Below, piece by piece: positions 27,733 through 56,343 of a DNA stretch of 64,000 bases; position 1 is the first letter of the stretch, and every line of letters starts with the position of its first letter. Below the pieces are notes generated by a model. That model was not told the DNA's origin, searched no databases, and worked only from the letters and a program-made list of their open reading frames with translations. The position numbers were made by a program, and so were the translations under genes. Source of the DNA: an uncultured Spirochaetaceae bacterium. Its GTDB lineage: Bacteria; Spirochaetota; Spirochaetia; Sphaerochaetales; Sphaerochaetaceae. The stretch covers positions 1 through 64,000 of the forward strand of contig CALXLH010000039.1 in NCBI GenBank assembly GCA_944389145.1, read 5' to 3'.

Positions 27733-27891
27733 CCTTACTATTTCCCTCTGGTTACGAACGCTCCAGCCAGCACGGACGCATGGCCAGATATGGCGGTTCA
27801 GTCCCTTTCATTATACATTCCGAGATATTTTTCTTCAAGGAGGCATGATAAAATGACCATGTATATATCTTTTTCCAAAATATGAAGTTGC

Positions 27892-29332: not shown

Positions 29333-29636
29333 TGAGTTTTCCACAGCCTGTGGAAAAGTCGGTGGAAAACTCACTGTAAAAGCTGTTGAAAACATGTTGA
29401 TCGAATCTGGAAATGATGTGCATAAGAGAAGGGTTTTCCACAGCCGATCGGAAAGCTTGGCGGCAGCATGTGGAAACTGTGGAAAACCAAGCCATTCATT
29501 CCACATAGTTATCCACATCGTATATCTATCCTATGCAATGATATGATATGGCTTTTCCACTTTTCCACAAAGACTATTACTACTACTGCAGTTTGTTTAT
29601 ATGTTATATTATCAATAATAGAAGGAGCCTACTACG
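29333..29636. other. oriC: DnaA boxes, DnaA-trio and AT-rich unwinding element
   Basis: The dnaA-dnaN gap holds one perfect TTATCCACA (29509-29517) and many TTTTCCACA-type boxes: forward at 29337, 29434, 29553 (last base T) and 29561, reverse at 29349, 29469 (one change) and 29478, with weaker ones at 29361 and 29384. The first two form an inverted pair around GCC. Right after the tandem boxes at 29553-29569 comes CTATTACTACTACTG (29574-29588), whose complement reads GAT-AAT-GAT-GAT 3' to 5', the DnaA-trio. An AT-rich stretch (29590-29622) follows. Boxes, trio and AT-rich DNA together form a complete basal unwinding system. Confidence 0.88.
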
Positions 29637-36303: not shown

Positions 36304-37299
36304 TCATAAGCTGAACCGATCTGTTATTCCTGCTTTGATCTCATCTATGCATCCAGAGCTGAACTGCGAGCCTATCTGACCTATGATCTCGCCTGCAAGG
36401 TATGATGCGATCATCCCTGACTTCTCCGTGCCATATCCTGAGAGATAGCCGAACAGGAATCCTGCTGCATATGTATCTCCGGCTCCTGTCGTATCCACGG
36501 GATCCGTAGTTCCATATAGCGGTATCTTCTTTATCACGCCATTATCTGAGATATAGGAGCCATGCTTTCCATTCTTCACTATCGCGATGCTGCATAGCTT
36601 GCCCATAGAACGGCAGCATTCATACGCATCATAATTGTCGAACAGGAACCTTGCCTCTTCGCTGTTAGCGAATACGATGTCTGCATTATCACGTATGATG
36701 CTTAGGAAATCCTCGCGATAGCGGCCTACGGCAAATGGATCTGCCAGATCGAATGCGACCGTCTTGTTCATCTTCCTGGCTATCTCAAGCACATGGCGTA
36801 CGGCCCTGCGCTGGCTTTCCGTGTCCCACATGTACCCTGTGAAGTAGAACATATCGGCATTCTCGATGCTACTGTCATTCACGAAGCTGCTGTCGAACAG
36901 CCTGTTAGCGCCGAGATATGTATTCATCGTACGCTCCTTGTCAGGCGTGAGCAGTATTATCGATGTTCCTGTGGGGCTGTCGAATGATACGAGCTCATCA
37001 TTCACTCCGCTCTCTGCCAGCCTCCTGCGGTAGATCTTTCCTTCCTCATCGCTGCCGATTCCTCCGGCAAGGGTCGTATCGATTCCAAGCATCCTTAGCG
37101 TGACCATCGTATTTGGGCATGAGCCGCCGCAAGAGTAGGATGTATCGAGATTCCGTATATGGCTCAGTATCTCCTGACGCTTTCTCTCATCTACCAGAAG
37201 CATCGTGCCCTTATTGAGCGATAACCTATCCAGCTCCTTGTCATCAACCCTGCAAAGGCAGTCTATCAGGGGATTTCCTATTCCATACACAGATGCCAT
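36304..37299 (-). CDS. PfkB-family carbohydrate/nucleoside kinase, adenosine kinase-like
   Basis: 331 residues, ribokinase fold. N-terminal YGIGNPLIDCLCRVDD and GGSCPNTMVTLRMLG (sugar-binding region). The C-terminal PfkB signature DTTGAGDTYAAGFLFG carries the catalytic Asp and anion hole. It resembles the adenosine kinase-like subgroup most, phosphorylating a nucleoside or sugar with ATP. The substrate is not certain. A perfect -10 TATAAT lies six bases before the ATG (37311-37306), a clear leaderless promoter. Confidence 0.85.
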   Translation of the reverse strand: MASVYGIGNPLIDCLCRVDDKELDRLSLNKGTMLLVDERKRQEILSHIRNLDTSYSCGGSCPNTMVTLRMLGIDTTLAGGIGSDEEGKIYRRRLAESGVNDELVSFDSPTGTSIILLTPDKERTMNTYLGANRLFDSSFVNDSSIENADMFYFTGYMWDTESQRRAVRHVLEIARKMNKTVAFDLADPFAVGRYREDFLSIIRDNADIVFANSEEARFLFDNYDAYECCRSMGKLCSIAIVKNGKHGSYISDNGVIKKIPLYGTTDPVDTTGAGDTYAAGFLFGYLSGYGTEKSGMIASYLAGEIIGQIGSQFSSGCIDEIKAGITDRFSL

Positions 37300-37305
37300 G
37301 ACAGG

Positions 37306-37311
37306 ATTATA
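37306..37311 (-). promoter_or_regulatory. -10 TATAAT of the PfkB kinase gene, leaderless
   Basis: Minus-strand consensus TATAAT ends six bases before the ATG at 37299. No convincing -35 at 17 bases. Confidence 0.5.
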
Positions 37312-37362
37312 ACCGAAAAGGAGCCTTCTTGATACGTGCTATTGACATACGCTAGATATGGG

Positions 37363-37612
37363 TTTTCCACTAGTTTTCCACAATTGCGTGTATAACTTGT
37401 GGAAAGCTGTGGAAATCATGGCTTTCAGGCATTGTCAACAGCATATGCATGGCATTGGTCACTATAAATTAATTATTTGTAATATAATGATATAAATTGA
37501 AACATTACAATCAGGATTTAATGTAACCAATATAATTTCTTAACTTGTGGAAAACCTCTTATCATGCTGTGGAAAATGGCTTATTCGGCAAGTTTTCCAC
37601 AGGTTTTCCACA
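37363..37612. other. Second DnaA-box cluster flanking an AT-rich core
   Basis: A non-coding 408-base gap holds eight TTTTCCACA-type boxes: forward at 37363 (last base T) and 37374, reverse at 37398 and 37408 (one change each), an AT-rich core (37461-37540), reverse at 37546 and 37568, forward at 37593 and 37604. The order is forward-forward-reverse-reverse on each half mirrored around the core. Unlike the dnaA-dnaN gap, no DnaA-trio follows any box. A DnaA-titrating or regulatory locus, or a secondary origin element, is suggested. Confidence 0.7.
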
Positions 37613-37707
37613 TGGTGGCATTATTCTGCTGCTCACTTGATAACTGCTATTGCCAAAGCGAATTAGTTGAAACAGCACGAATCCTGGCATATGGAAATCT
37701 AGTGTGG

Positions 37708-38754
37708 TCAGACCATGAGTCCGATATGGTACATCCTTACGGCATTGAAGAGTTCCCTGACATTTCCGCTCCATTCGCGGTTGAGGAACGGAGCGAAGTC
37801 AGTGATCCTGTCCTGAACGCTTATGCCGATCTTCTCCTCGATATTCTCTATCAGCCTAGGTATATCTTCCATGTGCTCTGAAAGGCTTGGCATCCTCAGC
37901 GTGATTCCTGAGATCCTATGATAGAAATCGTTGCGCATCTTCTTCTCCGTGACCATGCGCTGCATGTCTATGTTTGAGGCGGTTATGAGCATGAATTCAG
38001 ATTTCTTCATCCGGTCATCGCCGATCGATCTGTACTCTCCTGTCTCCATGAGATGGAGCAGCTTCGATTGCATCCTTAATGGAAGATCCTCGATCTCATC
38101 AAGGAACAGGATGCCTCCATCAGCAAGTGATACTATGCCGTCAACCTGATCCGTCGCTCCTGTGTAGGCACCCTTTGCATGACCGAAGAACCTTGATTCA
38201 GCGAGCTCTCCATCAAGAGCGCCGCATGATTCATATACGCTCTTGCGGCTCTTCGGGAGGCAGGCCTGCTTGATATACTGCACGACGAGATTCTTCCCTG
38301 TTCCTGTATCTCCTGATATATGGAATATCCTCTGCTTTGTCTTGATGATCCTCTCTATCGTGCGCCGCAGGGCTTCCATCACCTCTGAGTCTCCGACAAG
38401 CATGTCCTTGAGCGTGCCTATCTCATCCCTTATCCTCTCGGCGTCTTCCATGGCTCTTCCAAGCTCAGGCCCAGAGTAATCATATGGAAGGTATACGGTG
38501 TGCTGATATGACAGCAGGCGAGGGATATCTATCTTATCCGGATCATACAGCGCGATCATGGCATTGAGCGATGATAGCCTGTCCCTCAATGCTGGTGGTT
38601 CGATATCTGCCATATCGATGATGATCACGTCGTCCTTCTTAGGCAATGCTGACTTAAGCCTTTCGATCGAGCTATGTATCCTTGCCACAAGCGATGGCTC
38701 TGATGAAAGCCTTTCAAGCACGCCGCTGAGAGCAGGATTGAATATCTGGTACAA
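37708..38754 (-). CDS. Sigma-54-type AAA+ activator lacking a DNA-binding domain
   Basis: 348 residues. Residues about 1-110 form a receiver-like domain that contains DVIIIDMADIEPPALRDRL but lacks an obvious phospho-accepting set. The AAA+ domain follows, with Walker A GDTGTGKN, the sigma-54 contact loop GAYTGA (GAFTGA variant, near residue 196), Walker B GGILFLDEIEDLP and sensor region WSGNVRELFN. The protein ends 12 residues later with no Fis-type HTH. It could activate sigma-54 RNA polymerase from solution. TTG start with GGGGGAG upstream. Confidence 0.85.
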   Translation of the reverse strand: MYQIFNPALSGVLERLSSEPSLVARIHSSIERLKSALPKKDDVIIIDMADIEPPALRDRLSSLNAMIALYDPDKIDIPRLLSYQHTVYLPYDYSGPELGRAMEDAERIRDEIGTLKDMLVGDSEVMEALRRTIERIIKTKQRIFHISGDTGTGKNLVVQYIKQACLPKSRKSVYESCGALDGELAESRFFGHAKGAYTGATDQVDGIVSLADGGILFLDEIEDLPLRMQSKLLHLMETGEYRSIGDDRMKKSEFMLITASNIDMQRMVTEKKMRNDFYHRISGITLRMPSLSEHMEDIPRLIENIEEKIGISVQDRITDFAPFLNREWSGNVRELFNAVRMYHIGLMV

Positions 38755-45800: not shown

Positions 45801-48284
45801 ATGACATTTCTGAACCCTGACGAGATAGCTCAGCAGCAGCGTAATGAAGAGACAACAAAGCTTCAGATAATCACGCCGGAGATCCTGAAGAAATGGGATG
45901 ACAAGCGGATAATCATGGAATATGTGTTCACCGATGGGCGTATATCCATCGACGAATATAATGTCGCACATAGGGGAAAGCAGAAGAAGGCTGATTACCT
46001 CCTTCTCCATCGCGACAATCTTATCCTAGCTATCGTAGAGGCTAAGGGACAGGATGTATCGGCAGATGACGGCTATCAGCAGGCTGTGGATTATGCCCGT
46101 ATTCTTGATGTTCCGTTTGCATATGCTACTAATGGCATTGACCTCATCGAGAAGGACATGATATCCGGGCTGAATAAGAAGATGAAGCTCTCCCAGCTTC
46201 CAGGACCTGATGAGCTTTGGGTGCGCTATAAGGCTGAGAAAGAGATCTCTGATGATGAAGAGAATGTCATAACCTATCCTTATTACTACGAGGCTGGCGG
46301 CAAGAAGCCAAGATACTATCAGCGCATCGCCATCAACCGTGTTATTGAGCATATAGTCAAGGGTGAGGATCGTATACTCCTTGTCATGGCTACAGGCACC
46401 GGCAAGACATTTACGGCGTTTCAGATCATCTGGAGGCTCTGGAAGACGCATTTCAAGAGGAAGATCCTCTTCCTTGCTGACAGAAACATCCTTGTTGATC
46501 AGACGATGAGAAAGGATTTCAAGCCATTCACGGACGCTATGGAGAAGATAGATAATGCCAAGATCAATACATCAAAGGATATCTATCTTGCGCTCTACCA
46601 GCAGTTGAAATCTAAGGATACTGATTACTACAAGCGGTTTCCTTCTGATTTCTTCGACCTCATCGTCGTTGACGAATGCCATAGGAGCTCCGCTACCCCT
46701 GATTCCAACTGGCATGAGATACTCGGATACTTCAGCTCAGCAACTCAGATAGGCCTTACGGCAACCCCGAAGGAGACTGGGGTCGCAGAGGCACAGGAAG
46801 AGGAAGCTGAAGCCAAGGAAAGGCTTGAACGTGCAATAATTGCAGGAGAGGTTGCTGAGAAGGAAAGGGCATATAAGGCATTGAAGAAGGCAACGGAGAA
46901 ACGCGAGGAAGCCGAATCTGAATCAAATGCCGCATACTTTGGTAATCCTATATATACCTATTCGCTCAAGCAGGGAATCGAGGATGGATTCCTTGCACCA
47001 TATAAGGTCATATCAGTTGAGCTTGATATCGACAAATACGGCTATAAACCTAAGCCGGGCACGAAGGATATGGATGGCAATCCTGTCGAAGATAGGCGGT
47101 ATTACCAGAACGAGTTTGATAAGAAGATTGTCGTTGTTGATAGGCGTAAGCTCGTTGCGAAGCGCATAAGCGATTACCTCAAGACCAATGACCGTTATGG
47201 TAAGACGATAGTATTCTGCGAGGATATCCCGCACTGCGAGGAGATGGTCCGCTTTCTTGAGAATGAGAATGCTGACCTTGTCGCAGAGGATTCGAGATAC
47301 GTCATGCAGATAACAGGAGACAATGAGATCGGCAAGAAGCAGCTCGATAACTTCGTCGATCCTTCTTCGAAGTATCCTGTGATTGCTGTAACAAGCCGTC
47401 TAATGTCTACCGGGGTGGATGCTGAGACATGTGAGAATATCGTCCTCGACAGGTCCATCGGCAGCATGACGGAGTTCAAGCAGATAATCGGCCGTGGCAC
47501 GAGGATCAAGAAGGAATATGAGATCGATGGTGAGGAGAGGTCGAAGATGTACTTCTCCATCCTCGATTTCAGACGCAACTACCTGAAGTTCCAGGATCCG
47601 TCATTCGATGGCGATCCTGTGACCGTTACGGATGTACCAGAGGGTGGCGACTTCCCGAAGCCACCTGTACGTCCTACTCCGCCTCCTGCCGGCACTCCTA
47701 AACCACCAACAGCCACGAAGCAGATAAGGGTGAATGGCGTCGATGTATCGATCATCGATGAGGAAGTAACGTATCTAGACCAGAATGGCAACCTCGTGAA
47801 GCAGAACCTCGATTCATGCGTCAGGAACAATATCCTCACGCAGTATCCTGACTATGAGGACTTCAGGAAGGCTTGGCTCCTTGCCAAGGATAAGGCGCGC
47901 TTCGCTTCTGAGCTTCTTCTTGATGATGAATGGGGAAAGCGCTTCAAGATCCAGTATGGATACACAGTTGATGACTTCGATATCATCGCGTATCTCGGCT
48001 ATGACATAGAGCCTCCGATGTCGAAGCATCAGAGGACGCATAACGCGGCGATAGCAAGGCTTCTCGATTCGATGGATGACGAGAAGAAAGGAATAGTGAG
48101 GACGCTTCTTGATGCGTATGCGGAGACGAATTTCCAGAACCTCAGGGATATAAAGACGGTATTCTCGATGCCTGCTTTCACGGAGATGGGTTATACGCCG
48201 CTGAAGATAATCAAGGATTATTTCGGATCCAAGGATAAGTATTTTATTTTCCTCAGTGAACTGGAAAACAGGCTATATGAATAA
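45801..48284 (+). CDS. hsdR: Type I restriction enzyme, R subunit
   Basis: 827 residues. Translocates DNA and cuts at collision sites in complex with HsdM2S. N-terminal PD-(D/E)xK nuclease (Asp65 and Glu80-x-Lys82 in ILAIVEAKGQ). SF2 helicase: Walker A ATGTGKT (197-203), DECH box (291-294), TATP (320-323). C-terminal half (LMSTGVDAETCENIVLDR, QIIGRGTR) is helicase domain 2, then an EcoEI-type C-terminal domain. Unusually, about 50 charged Glu/Ala/Lys-rich residues (about 327-376) interrupt the usual join between TATPK and YFGNPIYTYSLKQGIEDGFLAPYKV. SD GGGAGAT upstream. Confidence 0.94.
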   Translation: MTFLNPDEIAQQQRNEETTKLQIITPEILKKWDDKRIIMEYVFTDGRISIDEYNVAHRGKQKKADYLLLHRDNLILAIVEAKGQDVSADDGYQQAVDYARILDVPFAYATNGIDLIEKDMISGLNKKMKLSQLPGPDELWVRYKAEKEISDDEENVITYPYYYEAGGKKPRYYQRIAINRVIEHIVKGEDRILLVMATGTGKTFTAFQIIWRLWKTHFKRKILFLADRNILVDQTMRKDFKPFTDAMEKIDNAKINTSKDIYLALYQQLKSKDTDYYKRFPSDFFDLIVVDECHRSSATPDSNWHEILGYFSSATQIGLTATPKETGVAEAQEEEAEAKERLERAIIAGEVAEKERAYKALKKATEKREEAESESNAAYFGNPIYTYSLKQGIEDGFLAPYKVISVELDIDKYGYKPKPGTKDMDGNPVEDRRYYQNEFDKKIVVVDRRKLVAKRISDYLKTNDRYGKTIVFCEDIPHCEEMVRFLENENADLVAEDSRYVMQITGDNEIGKKQLDNFVDPSSKYPVIAVTSRLMSTGVDAETCENIVLDRSIGSMTEFKQIIGRGTRIKKEYEIDGEERSKMYFSILDFRRNYLKFQDPSFDGDPVTVTDVPEGGDFPKPPVRPTPPPAGTPKPPTATKQIRVNGVDVSIIDEEVTYLDQNGNLVKQNLDSCVRNNILTQYPDYEDFRKAWLLAKDKARFASELLLDDEWGKRFKIQYGYTVDDFDIIAYLGYDIEPPMSKHQRTHNAAIARLLDSMDDEKKGIVRTLLDAYAETNFQNLRDIKTVFSMPAFTEMGYTPLKIIKDYFGSKDKYFIFLSELENRLYE

Positions 48285-49813: not shown

Positions 49814-51309
49814 TAGGAATCTGTGAAGACCTCAGAAAATCAGTACTGCAGGCAGCTATTCAAGGCAAGCTTACACAGCAGCTTCCGGAAGATGGGGATG
49901 CAGAGGCTCTCTATGCTGAAATCCAGAAAGAGAAGCAGAAGCTCATTAAGGAAGGAAAGATCAAAAAGGAGAAGCCGCTACCTGAAATAACCGAGGATGA
50001 TATTCCGTTTGATATCCCGGAGAATTGGAAGTGGGTTCATGTCGGAGAAGTAGTAAAGAATGTACAATATGGTACTGCTAAAAAATCATCAAAAACGGGG
50101 CTCATTCCGGTATTGAGGATGGGCAATATTCAGAACGGCAAGATTGACTATTCAAATCTCGTCTATACTTCTGATGTAGATGAGATAAGCCATTACGCAT
50201 TACAGAAAGATGATTTACTTTTCAATCGTACCAACAGCAGAGACCAGGTTGGCAAAGTAGCAATCTATAAAGCAGAAATGCCTGCAATTTATGCCGGCTA
50301 TCTTGTTCGTATAACTCCTGTTCAAGTTGATTCTGATTATATCAATTATGTTATGCAGACATCTTATTACTGGGAATACTGCCAAGCTGTTAAGAGTGAT
50401 GCTATTGGCCAGTCCAATATTAATGCAGAGAAGTTGAAAAACTTTATTTTTCCGCTTCCTTCTCTTCCTGAGCAGAAACGCATCGTTGCACGTGTCGATG
50501 AGCTCATGAAGAGAATCGATGAGATGGAGAAGACGGAGAAGGATATCACAGCGCTGTATGATGCGTTCCCGGGGGATATGAAGGCATCGCTTCTGCAGGC
50601 GGCGATACAGGGAAAGCTCACTGAACAGCTGGCATCGGATGGTGATGCAGAGACGCTGTATGTTGATATCCAGAAGGAGAAGCAGGGGCTTATCAAAGAA
50701 GGGAAGATCAAGAAGGAGAAGCCGCTTTCGGAGATATTAGAGGATGATATCCCGTTTGATATCCCGGAGAAATGGAAATGGGTAAGACAAGCAGAAGTCT
50801 GTAGAATTTATACAGGTAACAGTATTCCTGAACATATTAAACTTGAAAAATATATGAAGTCAGGTATTGAGGGGTACAACTATATTGGTACAAAAGATGT
50901 TTCTTTTGATCATGTAATCGATTATGAGAATGGTGTACGCATCCCGTATTCTGAACAAAGGTTCAAGCTCGCTCCTGAAGGATCAAGCCTTATTTGTATA
51001 GAGGGAGGAAGTGCGGGTAAAAAAGTAGGTTTTCTCTCACAGACTGTTTGTTTTGGTAATAAGCTATGTATGTTTAACCCGTATCTTATTGAACAGAAAT
51101 ATATTTACTATTGGTTGCAATCTCCAACCTTTCTTGAAAGCTTCTTTGAAAGAATGAATGGCATTATTGGTGGAGTAAAAATAAATGCTCTTTCTAATAT
51201 TATTATGCCATTGCCTCCTCTTGAAGAGCAGAAGCGCATCGTCGAGAAGCTGGATCAACTACTACCTCTCTGTGATTCCATGAAGGAGGCCATAGATGCC
51301 ACGGCCTAA
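49810..51309 (+). CDS. hsdS: Type I restriction-modification, specificity subunit
   Basis: 499 residues. Two target-recognition domains (about 75-210 and 325-470), each with the FPLPPLEEQKRIV-type end (FPLPSLPEQKRIVARVDEL and MPLPPLEEQKRIVEKLDQL) and each preceded by nearly the same conserved segment (QAAIQGKLT...GDAE...IQKEK...EGKIKKEKPL...DDIPFDIPE-WKW). That 75-residue duplication is also clear in the DNA (about 49840-50040 and 50590-50790). Such direct repeats permit domain swapping with other hsdS genes. GTG start overlaps hsdM. DNA specificity is not readable. Confidence 0.94.
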   Translation: MIGICEDLRKSVLQAAIQGKLTQQLPEDGDAEALYAEIQKEKQKLIKEGKIKKEKPLPEITEDDIPFDIPENWKWVHVGEVVKNVQYGTAKKSSKTGLIPVLRMGNIQNGKIDYSNLVYTSDVDEISHYALQKDDLLFNRTNSRDQVGKVAIYKAEMPAIYAGYLVRITPVQVDSDYINYVMQTSYYWEYCQAVKSDAIGQSNINAEKLKNFIFPLPSLPEQKRIVARVDELMKRIDEMEKTEKDITALYDAFPGDMKASLLQAAIQGKLTEQLASDGDAETLYVDIQKEKQGLIKEGKIKKEKPLSEILEDDIPFDIPEKWKWVRQAEVCRIYTGNSIPEHIKLEKYMKSGIEGYNYIGTKDVSFDHVIDYENGVRIPYSEQRFKLAPEGSSLICIEGGSAGKKVGFLSQTVCFGNKLCMFNPYLIEQKYIYYWLQSPTFLESFFERMNGIIGGVKINALSNIIMPLPPLEEQKRIVEKLDQLLPLCDSMKEAIDATA

Positions 51310-51321
51310 GAGAGAAGGACA

Positions 51322-51414
51322 ATGGAAGACAATCAATCTGCAGATATCAGCAGATCCTTAAAATCTGTGCTGGTATCAAAGATACGTCTTGGAAAAGCGC
51401 GGAGTGATGAATAA
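51322..51414 (+). CDS. Possible small peptide, 30 aa
   Basis: ATG at 51322 with AAGGA four bases upstream opens a 30-codon frame ending at 51414. The peptide is polar and unrecognised. It sits between hsdS and the DUF262 gene and could be a short translated leader or chance. Confidence 0.25.
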   Translation: MEDNQSADISRSLKSVLVSKIRLGKARSDE

Positions 51415-51432
51415 GAAGGAGAGACAACTTAT

Positions 51433-53208
51433 ATGAATTCTATGCTTTATCAGAGAGCAGATTATAAATTAGATGCTTTGCTATCGGATATCGAAACAGG
51501 TGTATTGGGACTTCCAGATCTGCAGCGACCATTTGTATGGCAAAACATAAAAGTCAGAGATCTTCTCGACTCGATGTTAAGAGGATATCCGATAGGGTAT
51601 CTAATGCTCTGGGATGCTCCTGATGATATCAACAAAGAGAAGCAGATAGGAATCGAAGAACACACAATCAAGGCTCCAAGACAGTTGATTATTGATGGGC
51701 AGCAACGTCTTACTTCCTTATATGCAGTCATGTATGGAAAGGAGGTCTTAGATTCACGTTTCCAGAAGAAGATGATCAGTATTGCCTTCAATCCATTGAA
51801 AAGAATATTTGAAGTAACGTCTGCAGCACATCGTAGAAGCGCTGAGTGGATTCCCGATGTCAGTGTTGTTTTCAGAAACTCAGGGAAGGCATATACATTC
51901 ATTGGAAGTTTCATCGCAAAACTTTCTGAATATAGGGTACAGAATGGTAATCCTCTCACACAGGAAGAAGAAGATCTTATTGCAGATAATATCCAGGCAT
52001 TGCTTTCGTTGAAGGACTACACTGTTCCAACGTTGACTATATCGAACAAGACTGATGAGGAAGCAGTAGCCGATATATTTGTTCGAGTGAATTCCAAGGG
52101 AAAGTCTCTTAATGAGAATGATTTTATCCTTACACTAATATCAGTTCATGATGAATCTGTAAGAAGGAAAATTGAGAAATTCTGCAGTGATGCTCTCATT
52201 CCCGTTGCTTCTGGAACGTCATACAATCAGCTTTTTACACCAAAGGCATCCCACATAATAAGAGCTGTTATGGCTTATGGCTTTAAGCGAGCAAGGCTCC
52301 GTTATGCATATATGGTTCTTGAAGGCAAGGATCTTTCGACCGGTCTGTATGATTCGTCACTGCGAGATAAGATGTTTGATCAGCTAAGGGTAAAGCTTGA
52401 TATTGTTCTCAATCTTTCAAATTGGCATGATTTCATGAATTGTCTTATTTCTGCAGGATATGTTTCATCAAAGCTGATAGCAGCTGATAATGCAATCGTC
52501 TATACGTATGTGATGTATCTGATTGGTCTTTGCGATTTCAAACTTGATAGGATAGAGCTAAGGAAGCTTATTGCCTTATGGTTCTATATGTCAGCAGTAA
52601 CGATGCGCTATTCAATATCGACCGAAAGTACAGTTCAGTCAGATCTGAACGACATTGGAAAGCTCACTACAGCTGATGAATTCAGGAGCTATATCATGCA
52701 GCGTATTGAAGAAACGTTCACTGATGATTTCTTTGCAATACAGCTTCCTGTGAATATGGAGACTTCAGCTGCAATCAGTCCATCGTGGAACGCATATTGT
52801 GCCGCACAGAATATCCTAGGAACAGATGCTATGTTTTCTTCTGTTCCACTTAAGATCTTGTTCTCTCCTGGTTCAGGTGGGAGTAAATCATCTATCGAGA
52901 AGCATCATCTATTTCCTCGTGCATATCTTCCGACTATAGGTTATTCAAGCCAGCAAGAAATTAATCAGATTGCCAATTTTGCTTTCATAGAATGGCCTCG
53001 CAACATCGCAATATCTGATGAAGCGCCTTCTGTATATTGGCTCCAGATTATATCTTCAATGAGTACAGATGTGATAAGAAAGCTATGTGATGAGAACGCT
53101 CTTCCTGAAGGTTGGGAGAGTATGGATTATCCAGAGTTCTTGGATGCAAGACGCCATCTGATGGCTGATATCGTGAAACGTGGATATAAAGCTCTTCTGG
53201 TGTTGTGA
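51433..53208 (+). CDS. DUF262/HNH protein, GmrSD-like restriction factor
   Basis: 591 residues. N-terminal DUF262 with its ParB/Srx-like signatures LPDLQRPFVW (about 27-36) and LIIDGQQRLTSLYAV (85-99), the nucleotide-hydrolysing part of GmrS-type proteins. ADIFVRVNSKGKSLNENDFILTLIS is another hallmark. The C-terminus has an HNH-like EKHHLFPRAYL (489-499), resembling DUF1524/GmrD nuclease. This is the one-chain arrangement of type IV-type systems that attack modified phage DNA. AAGGAGA precedes the ATG. Probably part of the island's defence repertoire and co-transcribed with hsdS or started nearby. Confidence 0.85.
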   Translation: MNSMLYQRADYKLDALLSDIETGVLGLPDLQRPFVWQNIKVRDLLDSMLRGYPIGYLMLWDAPDDINKEKQIGIEEHTIKAPRQLIIDGQQRLTSLYAVMYGKEVLDSRFQKKMISIAFNPLKRIFEVTSAAHRRSAEWIPDVSVVFRNSGKAYTFIGSFIAKLSEYRVQNGNPLTQEEEDLIADNIQALLSLKDYTVPTLTISNKTDEEAVADIFVRVNSKGKSLNENDFILTLISVHDESVRRKIEKFCSDALIPVASGTSYNQLFTPKASHIIRAVMAYGFKRARLRYAYMVLEGKDLSTGLYDSSLRDKMFDQLRVKLDIVLNLSNWHDFMNCLISAGYVSSKLIAADNAIVYTYVMYLIGLCDFKLDRIELRKLIALWFYMSAVTMRYSISTESTVQSDLNDIGKLTTADEFRSYIMQRIEETFTDDFFAIQLPVNMETSAAISPSWNAYCAAQNILGTDAMFSSVPLKILFSPGSGGSKSSIEKHHLFPRAYLPTIGYSSQQEINQIANFAFIEWPRNIAISDEAPSVYWLQIISSMSTDVIRKLCDENALPEGWESMDYPEFLDARRHLMADIVKRGYKALLVL

Positions 53209-53266
53209 TTGTTTTCGACCGAATATATTTGGTTTGGATGGGCATAGGAATCCTTGATTTATGACA

Positions 53267-53295
53267 TTGGTCTAACATGGTAGATAATTTATATT
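53267..53295 (+). promoter_or_regulatory. Promoter of the OLD-like nuclease gene
   Basis: -35 TTGGTC (53267-53272), 17-base spacer, -10 TATATT (53290-53295), 12 bases to the ATG. The expected leader is only a few bases, so the GGAG next to the -10 box may not be transcribed. Confidence 0.45.
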
Positions 53296-53307
53296 GGAGA
53301 AAACAAC

Positions 53308-54969
53308 ATGAACGTATTTCTGCCTTATAGTTTTACATTCAATGGTTATAAATGTTTCAAAGAAGTAAATAGCCTTCCGTGGTTTAAGTCTTTTAATGTC
53401 ATAATCGGTCGTAATAATTCAGGGAAATCATCTTTCATTGATATAATCCATTCTCTTTGCGATGCAAATTTCCGTGCAAGTATTTCTAAAGATATTAGAA
53501 TAACAATGAAATACAGAATTGATGGATATGAATACTTTGATCTCGATAATCTTGATTTGCAGATTTACAGAAATAGAAGTTTAACTCTTTCTTATTTTGG
53601 CTTGCATTTTATTGGTAAAGAACTAATAGCGGATGTAAGCTTAAAACAACATAACTCTGGATATAACAATTCATATGATATAGTATCTGGAAAAAGGTAT
53701 GACATAGATAATAACATAGTATTATTAAAGTTAAATGATGATACTATGCTTGATCCTTTCAACAATTCAGTTTTCAGATGTGTATCAAGTGAAAGAGATA
53801 TCACCCCAGAGGCGTTCTTTTCTGGTGCAGACCAAATCGATATAGATTCTAATGGTATAGGAACAACCAGATATGTCTGCTCGATACTTAATAATAAGAA
53901 TAAGAAAGATACAATCATACAGGAAGATGTGCTAAACGCTTTTAATGAGATACTTGGTACTGATGGTCATTATAGAAACATAAAGGTTAAGCAGGATAAT
54001 GGTGATAATTGGGAAATTGTCTTAGAAGATGATGATAAAAACCAATACCAGATATCAAAGTTAGGAAGCGGACTGAAAACCATTCTGATGGTACTTTTGA
54101 ATCTAATTGCTATTTCAAATGATTTCAAAGACAAAACCATGGTATTTGCTTTTGAAGAGTTGGAGAATAATCTTCATCCTGCATTAGAGAAGCGACTATA
54201 TTCTTACATATTCAATTATGCCCAGAAAAATAATTATATGATTTTCCTGACAACACATTCCCCGGTCGCAATAGATATGTTTTCAAGAGAAGAATCTGTC
54301 CAATTCTATAAGACAGAGAGAAATTCTAGTGGCTATCAAATTGTTCCGATCTCAAGTTTTGATGATTCAATTGAAGTAATAGACGATCTAGGGATTAAAG
54401 CCAGTGATCTCTTACAAGCAAACGGCATAATATGGGTAGAAGGGCCTTCTGATAGGATATATATCAAGAATTGGCTAAATGCGAAGTATTCTGGAATTTT
54501 TGAAGAGGGAAGGGACTACCAATTCGTTTATTATGGGGGAAGATTGTTGGCCCACTATACTGCATGTGACCCTATGAAAGAAGAAGTCGATAGCTATATC
54601 AATGTCCTCGCGGTAAATTCAAAGGCTTTCTTTGTGATGGACAGCGATCAGGATTCTCTTGATGATCCCTTGGATAAACGTAAAGAACGTATAATACAAA
54701 GACTCAAAGAGAAAGATATGGCTTATTGGGTTACAAAAGGCAGGGAGATAGAGAATTATCTTGATTTATCGAAAAGCGGCATTCAGCTAGGGCAATTTGA
54801 TAAATTGGAAGATATGCCTAAGATGGCGAACTTCGATAAGATCAATTTTGCAAGGCAACATCATGGAGATGTAGATTTCAATAAATACAATTTAAATGAG
54901 GATTTAAAATTGTTGGCGAATGAAATCGCAAGATGGAATGGTAGAGAGTTGCCTGCTGATAAATGCTGA
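53308..54969 (+). CDS. OLD-family ATPase-TOPRIM nuclease
   Basis: 553 residues. N-terminal SMC/RecF-like ATPase with Walker A GRNNSGKSS (34-42) and a downstream Walker B-like segment MVFAFEELENNLHPALEKRL (about 277-296) plus LTTHSPVAIDMF. C-terminal TOPRIM: WVEGPSDRIYIKNWL (about 376-390) and FFVMDSDQD (about 440-448), with the acidic residues expected for metal-dependent cutting. Proteins of this build defend against phages, as OLD of phage P2 or GajA of Gabija do. No GajB-like helicase is adjacent. Strongly AT-rich compared with the chromosome, a sign of transfer. Confidence 0.85.
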   Translation: MNVFLPYSFTFNGYKCFKEVNSLPWFKSFNVIIGRNNSGKSSFIDIIHSLCDANFRASISKDIRITMKYRIDGYEYFDLDNLDLQIYRNRSLTLSYFGLHFIGKELIADVSLKQHNSGYNNSYDIVSGKRYDIDNNIVLLKLNDDTMLDPFNNSVFRCVSSERDITPEAFFSGADQIDIDSNGIGTTRYVCSILNNKNKKDTIIQEDVLNAFNEILGTDGHYRNIKVKQDNGDNWEIVLEDDDKNQYQISKLGSGLKTILMVLLNLIAISNDFKDKTMVFAFEELENNLHPALEKRLYSYIFNYAQKNNYMIFLTTHSPVAIDMFSREESVQFYKTERNSSGYQIVPISSFDDSIEVIDDLGIKASDLLQANGIIWVEGPSDRIYIKNWLNAKYSGIFEEGRDYQFVYYGGRLLAHYTACDPMKEEVDSYINVLAVNSKAFFVMDSDQDSLDDPLDKRKERIIQRLKEKDMAYWVTKGREIENYLDLSKSGIQLGQFDKLEDMPKMANFDKINFARQHHGDVDFNKYNLNEDLKLLANEIARWNGRELPADKC

Positions 54970-55013
54970 TTTAACAGTATGGATTTAACCTAAAGAAGAA
55001 CTACGATAGGCCA

Positions 55014-55505
55014 ATGAAAAAGACTGTTTATGCTGCTAACAATGAACAAGCCACCTATTATCTAAAGAAGCATCAAGGTGAGAATATAAAGAATATCGAA
55101 GATGGAACTATTGCTCGGTATGGATCAGTTGGCCGTAATAAGATGATTTCAAACAAAGCCCGTGAAAAGTCTTTGAAGAATGGTTTTACTCCTCAAGAAC
55201 ATAACACAGCAGCTGCTAATATTGCCATCCTATATGAACATGGGCATAAGCTCGTTGAGCGGCCTGACAGAAAAGGGAATAATGATGTTCGAATAAGATA
55301 CTACGAAACCGGTATTGAGTTTTATCCTTCGGGGAAGCTTGGATATGCTCAGATAATGATGAAGATGAGCAATATTGAGGGTAACACGCTATATACAATC
55401 GAACTTGTCGAGATAAAAAATAAGCCTGACCTCATTGATGAACCACTCTCCGAAGAGGCGATTCGAGCGTCAGACCCTAAGATTAAATTACCATCAGAGC
55501 CATGA
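55014..55505 (+). CDS. Unknown 163-aa protein, partner of the OLD-like gene (right island edge)
   Basis: 163 residues, unrecognised. Basic N-terminal half (KNIEDGTIARYGSVGRNKMISNKAREKSL) and a beta-rich C-terminal half (VRIRYYETGIEFYPSGKLGYAQIMMKMSNIEGNTLYTIELVEIKNK) ending in an acidic KPDLIDEPLSEEAIRASD segment. No membrane segment. It begins 44 bases after the OLD-like gene, same strand, so probably one operon. A mirrored, broken copy of its 3' end lies at 45569-45740. Could be a regulator, antitoxin or phage-sensing partner. None can be shown. Confidence 0.7.
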   Translation: MKKTVYAANNEQATYYLKKHQGENIKNIEDGTIARYGSVGRNKMISNKAREKSLKNGFTPQEHNTAAANIAILYEHGHKLVERPDRKGNNDVRIRYYETGIEFYPSGKLGYAQIMMKMSNIEGNTLYTIELVEIKNKPDLIDEPLSEEAIRASDPKIKLPSEP

Positions 55506-55517
55506 AATGTCAATTTA
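55360..55517 (+). repeat. Right arm of the island-flanking inverted repeat
   Basis: The 3' end of the 163-aa gene and 12 bases after it. Its best part, 55410-55476, is 63 of 67 positions identical to the reverse complement of 45607-45671. The arms are about 9.7 kb apart and enclose hsdRMS, the DUF262 gene and the OLD-like gene. Confidence 0.8.
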
Positions 55518-55578
55518 ATGCTCTTTCCCCTTTATGATCCCAATTTTCATGCCTAGTCTGAAATCGTCTTCATTTCCT

Positions 55579-56343
55579 TCAGAACGTCTGCCTTGATGAT
55601 ACAGATAGCATCGCTACTCCTATCAGGTAGAGAATGATCGCTATCGTTCCTGATATATAATCCGTTCCTAACGATATCAGGTTGCCAGACATCAGGAGGA
55701 TGTAGCTGATCGCTCTTCCTGGAGTATGGGTTGCCCTGTCCTTTACTACTGCCATCGCATATGTAAGCGCGGCTATTATGCACATCACTACCAGCGTCAG
55801 GGCTATGTATGCGTCGTTGGATGATGAGAATAGGGTGGTTCCCGTGCTGTCTGTGCTGATCGGAGCGGCTATTGAAAGGAACACGGCAGCAAGGAGGCTG
55901 AGCGTAAGGTAGAGCCTGTTGCGTGAGTTGTTTATGCCGAAGAACTGGATAGCGGCGAATACGAATATCACGGAAGTGCCAAGGATCGCGAAGCGGGCAA
56001 TCATCACCACTGCGATAGGGGAGAGCAGCGTTACTCCTGTCACCTCCTGATACAGAGGGAAGATGTATGTCGCCTCAAGGGCTATGAACGTGAAGAGAAG
56101 AGGAAGGAGGGAGCCTTCCTGCGTGTGCGCCCTATGCCGTATGCGCAGTATGAACTGCAGCACCACTGATGCTATGATGATCACGAGCTGAGGCAGGTAG
56201 ACTATGAGAGTGATCGGCCAGTTCGTGAAGTTTCCTGATATCAGGACGATGGTCATATGGATCAGCATCGCGCCATATACCAATGATATCAGCATTTGCA
56301 GGACAAGTGCCGCTGTCCCTGATTTCTTCCGTTCCGTGGCCAC
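55579..56343 (-). CDS. Integral membrane protein of unknown function
   Basis: 254 residues with about seven hydrophobic segments (for example AALVLQMLISLVYGAMLIHM, LVIIIASVVLQFIL, LLAAVFLSIAAP, YIALTLVVMCIIAALTYAM). No family was recognised. GTG start abuts the stop of the symporter gene, so the two are co-transcribed and perhaps act together in the membrane. Confidence 0.75.
   Translation of the reverse strand: MATERKKSGTAALVLQMLISLVYGAMLIHMTIVLISGNFTNWPITLIVYLPQLVIIIASVVLQFILRIRHRAHTQEGSLLPLLFTFIALEATYIFPLYQEVTGVTLLSPIAVVMIARFAILGTSVIFVFAAIQFFGINNSRNRLYLTLSLLAAVFLSIAAPISTDSTGTTLFSSSNDAYIALTLVVMCIIAALTYAMAVVKDRATHTPGRAISYILLMSGNLISLGTDYISGTIAIILYLIGVAMLSVSSRQTF

Follow-up and report, generated by a model that had tools for sequence, protein, structure and literature searches.

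A non-coding element of ~315 bp was recognized between a PfkB-family kinase gene and a gene for a short sigma-54 activator on contig C39 of an uncultured gut spirochaete (genome 2.13 Mb, 42 contigs), the source of the 64,000-nucleotide stretch analyzed here (the window). In the element, one tandem pair of DnaA boxes stands on each side of a central AT-rich dyad of 25 bp, and a further dyad follows on the right; the element was present in all 41 genomes of Candidatus Ornithospirochaeta that were read (of 48). From its composition and conservation, we proposed, with a probability of roughly 0.6, that the element is a DnaA-control locus that would work like Escherichia coli datA and act as a brake on initiation.

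Composition and anatomy of the element

The initial annotation had described eight boxes in 250 bases, and eight were indeed found within 37363-37612, five of them exact copies of TTTTCCACA and three with one mismatch (at 37363, 37398, and 37408). In 2,000 dinucleotide shuffles of the intergenic region 37300-37707, which holds these eight boxes at up to one mismatch, the mean was 0.38 and the count never exceeded 3; in the window as a whole, TTWTNCACA occurred 14 times compared with 2.2 expected and a peak of 7 in 100 shuffles. A density of boxes outside oriC that exceeds chance characterizes a DnaA-box control cluster, and such a density was observed here. The placement of this second cluster ~8 kb from oriC also held, the boxes of the dnaA-dnaN gap being 7.8 kb away. 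The mirrored arrangement claimed for the boxes was correct as to their order (forward, forward, reverse, reverse on the left; reverse, reverse, forward, forward on the right), but this order is not dyad-symmetric. The features are collected in table 1.

Table 1. Positions of the features in the window
Feature	Position	Strand	Remark
oriC, dnaA-dnaN gap	29337-29590	+	11 DnaA boxes (29337-29569); DnaA-trio right after the last box
Left neighbor, PfkB-family kinase	36304-37299	-	PF00294; outside the element
Left motif ACGCTAGATAT	37349-37359	+	genus form ACRCTATATAT; loose regular expression, 39 of 42 elements
Left tandem DnaA-box pair	37363-37382	+	TTTTCCACT, TTTTCCACA; 11-bp pitch
Two reverse DnaA boxes	37398-37416	-	one mismatch each; placement differs among relatives
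Central 25-bp dyad TAATTATTTGTAATATAATGATATA	37470-37494		
CAATATAA	37528-37535		by alignment, where relatives have the conserved motif TTATATAA
Two exact reverse DnaA boxes	37546-37576	-	
Right tandem DnaA-box pair	37593-37612	+	exact; 11-bp pitch; the genome's only TTWTNCACANNTTWTNCACA
Right-hand 25-bp dyad	37641-37665		TAANT-N15-ANTTA
Right neighbor, short sigma-54-activator AAA+ protein	37708-38754	-	PF00158; outside the element, 3' end towards it
DnaA box starts	37363(+), 37374(+), 37398(-), 37408(-), 37546(-), 37568(-), 37593(+), 37604(+)		

Across the relatives, the invariant core consisted of the two head-to-tail box pairs, both in the same direction and at 11-bp pitch, and the inner reverse boxes varied. 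The left motif precedes the left pair by 12-13 bp, or by 22-25 bp in the clade in which the pair is shifted by one step. The central dyad was among the genome's two best matches to TAANTNNTTNTANTANAANNANTTA (one mismatch) and ranked first within its own 20-kb region by a leave-one-out matrix; when the matrix was built from the central dyads alone, again leaving one out, the element came top in 28 of the 32 regions scored, each 10-20 kb long. The conserved positions of the central motif mirror one another in the genus copies (TAANTNNTTATAATATAANNANNTA), and a gapless comparison of 22 equal-length copies yielded the same consensus. Symmetric covariation of the variable dyad positions was absent in the genus (p 0.95), and outside the genus these positions covaried weakly (p 0.0095; L311 was dropped from the dyad tally). 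To the right, TAANT-N15-ANTTA was found 46-50 bp past the start of the right pair in 38 of the 42 elements, with at most one mismatch.

As to the surroundings, the sigma-54 activator is an AAA+ protein with GAYTGA, in which Pfam found no C-terminal DNA-binding domain. Farther along the window, past a type I restriction-like ORF (45801-48284, named by eye), the G+C content is low (35-40%) at positions 51001-56000.

Conservation and spacing among spirochaetes

Conservation in relatives had been proposed as a check on the cluster, and the genus passed it in 41 of 41 genomes, which carried 42 copies. At least five boxes (at most one mismatch) were present in 37 copies, and three or four in the other five. 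Where one contig carried both, the element lay 7-14 kb from dnaA. One of its neighbors was pfkB, rbr, or fur, and the opposite one was the short sigma-54 activator or rsmE. The element was retained where the activator was missing, which is the case at the locus in one genus clade, and also in G001 and G014, which lack both pfkB and the activator at this place; in six genomes (G018, G019, G025, G026, G032, and G062), the genes on both sides are transcribed towards it. The genome with two copies, G035, carries them on contigs C138 and C142 (L143 and L092); the copies differ, both stand with the kinase and the activator, and they reflect either a duplication or a strain mixture.

The distances from the left pair to the central dyad and from the dyad to the right pair were 107/123 bp in 22 of the 42 copies, 96/112 in 11, 107/122 in 5, and 107/124, 85/112, 107/113, and 105/123 in one copy each; the spacings of the box-poor copies of G034, G024, G003, and G031 are less certain because these were placed by alignment. 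On the DnaA tree, which carries flagged long branches including G031, the 107/123 spacing occurred in both the deepest and the main clade, and the larger changes could be read as three losses of 10-11 bp, one nested within another. The spacing of the element thus shortens in ~11-bp steps, about one helical turn each. The dyad, at a helically stepped spacing from the box pairs, would be a candidate for a bender site such as that of datA, and the steps predict that half-turn insertions would break the element and full-turn insertions would be tolerated.

Beyond the genus, 51 tandem pairs at 11-bp pitch were found in 34 of 79 genomes of the class, compared with two matches to the reversed pattern, and 40 regions from 37 genomes contained 26 chains of at least four boxes, compared with 0.3 expected; 11 of these chains were read as lying away from dnaA. 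In the family of G058, inferred to be Treponemataceae, the tandem pair occurred in 83 of 145 genomes. Fifty of these Treponemataceae loci were read (30 from the search and 20 hand-picked), and the dyad was present in all 20 loci with a STAS-domain gene (p<=0.02) and in 7 of the 30 loci without one. In the STAS-linked loci, the left spacing was 94-98 or 105-110 bp in 16 of 20 and the right spacing 113-120 bp in 16 of 20, values that are suggestive, as the pairs were chosen as the best-scoring ones; one horse-gut Treponema record showed 110/120, in total 230. Three loci of other spirochaetes (L145, L182, and L220) showed 88/116-117 in elements adjoining murA, and the gene order murA-element-STAS-activator-rsmE-S41 of L145 and L220 matches the order element-activator-rsmE-S41 of the genus. 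Thus, to judge from gene order, the locus is probably orthologous to that of the genus.

The distance to dnaA outside the genus was 9 kb in G074, ~74 kb in G093, and 474 kb in G191 (a single contig that begins at dnaA). No second box cluster was found in G072 and G097, genera of the same family, which implies either losses or independent gains. The left-hand spacing outside the genus peaked at a period of 10.5 (R 0.56, n=27, relatedness uncorrected), and the right-hand spacing showed no such peak (R 0.32). The dyad did not exceed chance (p>0.05) in 7 of 14 clusters tested outside the genus (G078, G077, G076, G075, G052, and two Atribacteria).

Matches of the same geometry in Atribacteria, Ruminococcus, Calescibacterium-like genomes, Paenibacillus, and Ktedonobacteraceae were not counted as members; those of Ruminococcus are the dnaA-dnaN gap, and two of Atribacteria lacked the dyad when tested. 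In Candidatus Atribacteria (L148, L150, and L144), two tandem DnaA-box pairs stand ~205-208 bp apart between mnmE-side and parA-parB-like genes, possibly the oriC of these genomes. Very dense DnaA-box arrays occur upstream of an alaS-like gene in Calescibacterium-like MAGs (L149, L173, and L184), repeated DnaA-box blocks lie ~1 kb from a dnaG-like ORF in a Ktedonobacteraceae MAG (L171, 3306-3558), and two exact copies of TTTTCCACA 182 bp apart adjoin an integrase-like ORF on contig C24 of G000 (L139, 1541-1731).

The origin region and alternative readings

The dyad of the element recurs at most oriCs and in most dnaA promoter regions of the genus. In the dnaA-dnaN gap, the best dyad site lay 105-121 bp before the dnaN match in 29 of 42 genomes and reached a shuffle p<=0.05 in 31 of 42; because the oriCs are homologous, this constant position is not independent evidence. 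The oriC dyad of the genome studied here is weak (4.6 bits, p 0.05, outside the region's top five sites), which counts against the proposed datA-like reading. The motif was also observed at a similar place in the gyrB-dnaA gap of most genomes listed (~27865-27889 in the window), a copy through which the same factor may also act on dnaA expression. The dyad is not confined to replication loci: at up to two mismatches, each of 16 genomes had 9-42 sites, compared with 0-9 for the reversed control, numbers that fit an abundant DNA-binding protein. A dyad regulon was considered, and no shared theme was seen by eye among the genes next to the dyads, either in 20 regions drawn from three relatives or in 15 from this genome. 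The genome has one gene of the HU/IHF family (PF00216), which among PDB entries matched IHF and Borrelia Hbb best.

DnaA boxes flank a core of 26% G+C (37421-37545), which would speak for an accessory or alternative replication origin, but this option of the initial annotation is very improbable. Trio-like runs of at least four were observed in 4 of 42 elements, matching the 10% in shuffles, and in 33 of 40 oriC gaps (those of G014 and G031, too long for the oriC alignment, were left out of the trio count); in the gapless oriC comparison (n=22), six genomes in which a stricter regular expression detected no trio were left out. The cluster had thus been rightly described as lacking a DnaA-trio. 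Moreover, the GC-skew minimum lies at 27-29 kb, that is, at dnaA-dnaN and not at the element, and the plus-strand genes on either side of the element are similar in third-position skew. We consider it just as improbable that DnaA acts through the element on the kinase or the sigma-54 activator, as it would at a promoter or other regulatory region: the element does lie upstream of pfkB in this genome, but it is kept where pfkB or the activator is absent and also where the flanking genes converge, which speaks against a promoter of either neighbor. The 3' end of the activator points at the element, and promoter-like sites there are no commoner than in shuffles. That the element is a chromosome-organizing or segregation site, with the DnaA boxes secondary, also appears improbable; the recurrence of the AT-rich dyad, many times in each genome, would agree with it, but the most constant part is the tandem DnaA pairs at 11-bp pitch.

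Two further readings, both of which we regard as unlikely, make DnaA itself the target. A plain titration sink in the style of the B. subtilis DnaA-box clusters, with no catalytic assembly, would account for the box density; deletion of all six such clusters in B. subtilis led to early initiation, which one cluster partly relieved (as an excerpt of PMC5295017 describes), and boxes in E. coli are enriched near oriC (excerpt of PMC12371093). However, a plain sink requires neither a fixed spacing in ~11-bp steps nor a central or a right-hand dyad. Alternatively, a DARS-like assembly would strip ADP off DnaA and promote initiation; DARS2 likewise combines DnaA boxes with IHF sites (in the part of PMC10380432 consulted) and has a similar geometry. 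The geometry of our element fits both inactivation and reactivation of the DARS type, but its origin-proximal position in the genus would favor a brake.

A proposed DnaA-control locus and known systems

Among the three options that the initial annotation had offered, a role like that of datA or of the DnaA-box clusters fits best, and we proposed the datA-like form. We infer that DnaA would bind both head-to-tail box pairs, and that a dyad-recognizing protein, most plausibly the genome's single bender of the IHF/Hbb type, would fold the ~230 bp between the pairs and so bring two DnaA groups together at a fixed helical phase; the assembly would then withdraw DnaA by titration, by hydrolysis of ATP-DnaA, or by both. 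The helically fixed boxes around a dyad common to oriC argue for such a folded DnaA complex. At 8 kb from oriC, the element would be duplicated almost at once after initiation and would thereby lower active DnaA and prevent re-firing, an argument specific to the genus, since the distance to dnaA is not kept outside it. No match to Hda above its cut-off was found, which leaves room for such a brake. It is also possible, more tentatively, that these elements form a class of their own that is old in Spirochaetia, with two helically phased pairs around a dyad and a dedicated protein that would also act at oriC and the dnaA promoter, coupling initiation, initiator synthesis, and inactivation where no Hda was detected.

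Most of what is known of dedicated DNA loci that control DnaA comes from E. coli; the clusters of B. subtilis are simpler. We found no description of the element in the open-licence literature on spirochaete DnaA boxes and origins, on datA in Treponema, or on Ornithospirochaeta. If Spirochaetia have a composite element that follows the logic of datA, nucleoprotein brakes of this kind may be of greater age or may have arisen repeatedly, and the element would be a testable answer to how initiation is limited in spirochaetes in which no Hda was detected.

Several known systems resemble the element in part. In Borrelia burgdorferi, DnaA binding occurs at the dnaA-dnaN oriC and upstream of other genes (excerpt of PMC9879097). 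The bipartite oriC of B. subtilis has two separated DnaA-box clusters (as portrayed in the portion of PMC5295017 consulted), but these flank dnaA, and the second cluster here lies 8 kb from it and lacks a trio. The B. subtilis DnaA-box clusters likewise lie outside the origin, their joint removal causes early initiation, and one of them, put back at various places, partly relieves it (same excerpt); in the element described here, by contrast, the boxes keep a fixed spacing about a central dyad, and the gene context is common across families. DARS1 and DARS2 of E. coli also consist of DnaA boxes in non-coding DNA, with IHF sites in DARS2 (in the consulted part of PMC10380432), but their effect is opposite to the brake proposed here. 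The closest parallel is datA, the DDAH locus of E. coli, which according to that part of PMC10380432 is a non-coding box cluster outside oriC with one IHF site, in which spacing is important, displacement from oriC impairs function, and looping is proposed to join DnaA molecules for ATP hydrolysis; position effects of datA are also covered in an excerpt of PMC5010248. Unlike datA, which stands in the context of a tRNA-Gly operon and queG (PMC10380432, same part), our element stands in the context of a PfkB kinase and a sigma-54 activator, and it combines two head-to-tail pairs at 11-bp pitch with two dyads, 8 kb from dnaA in the genus.
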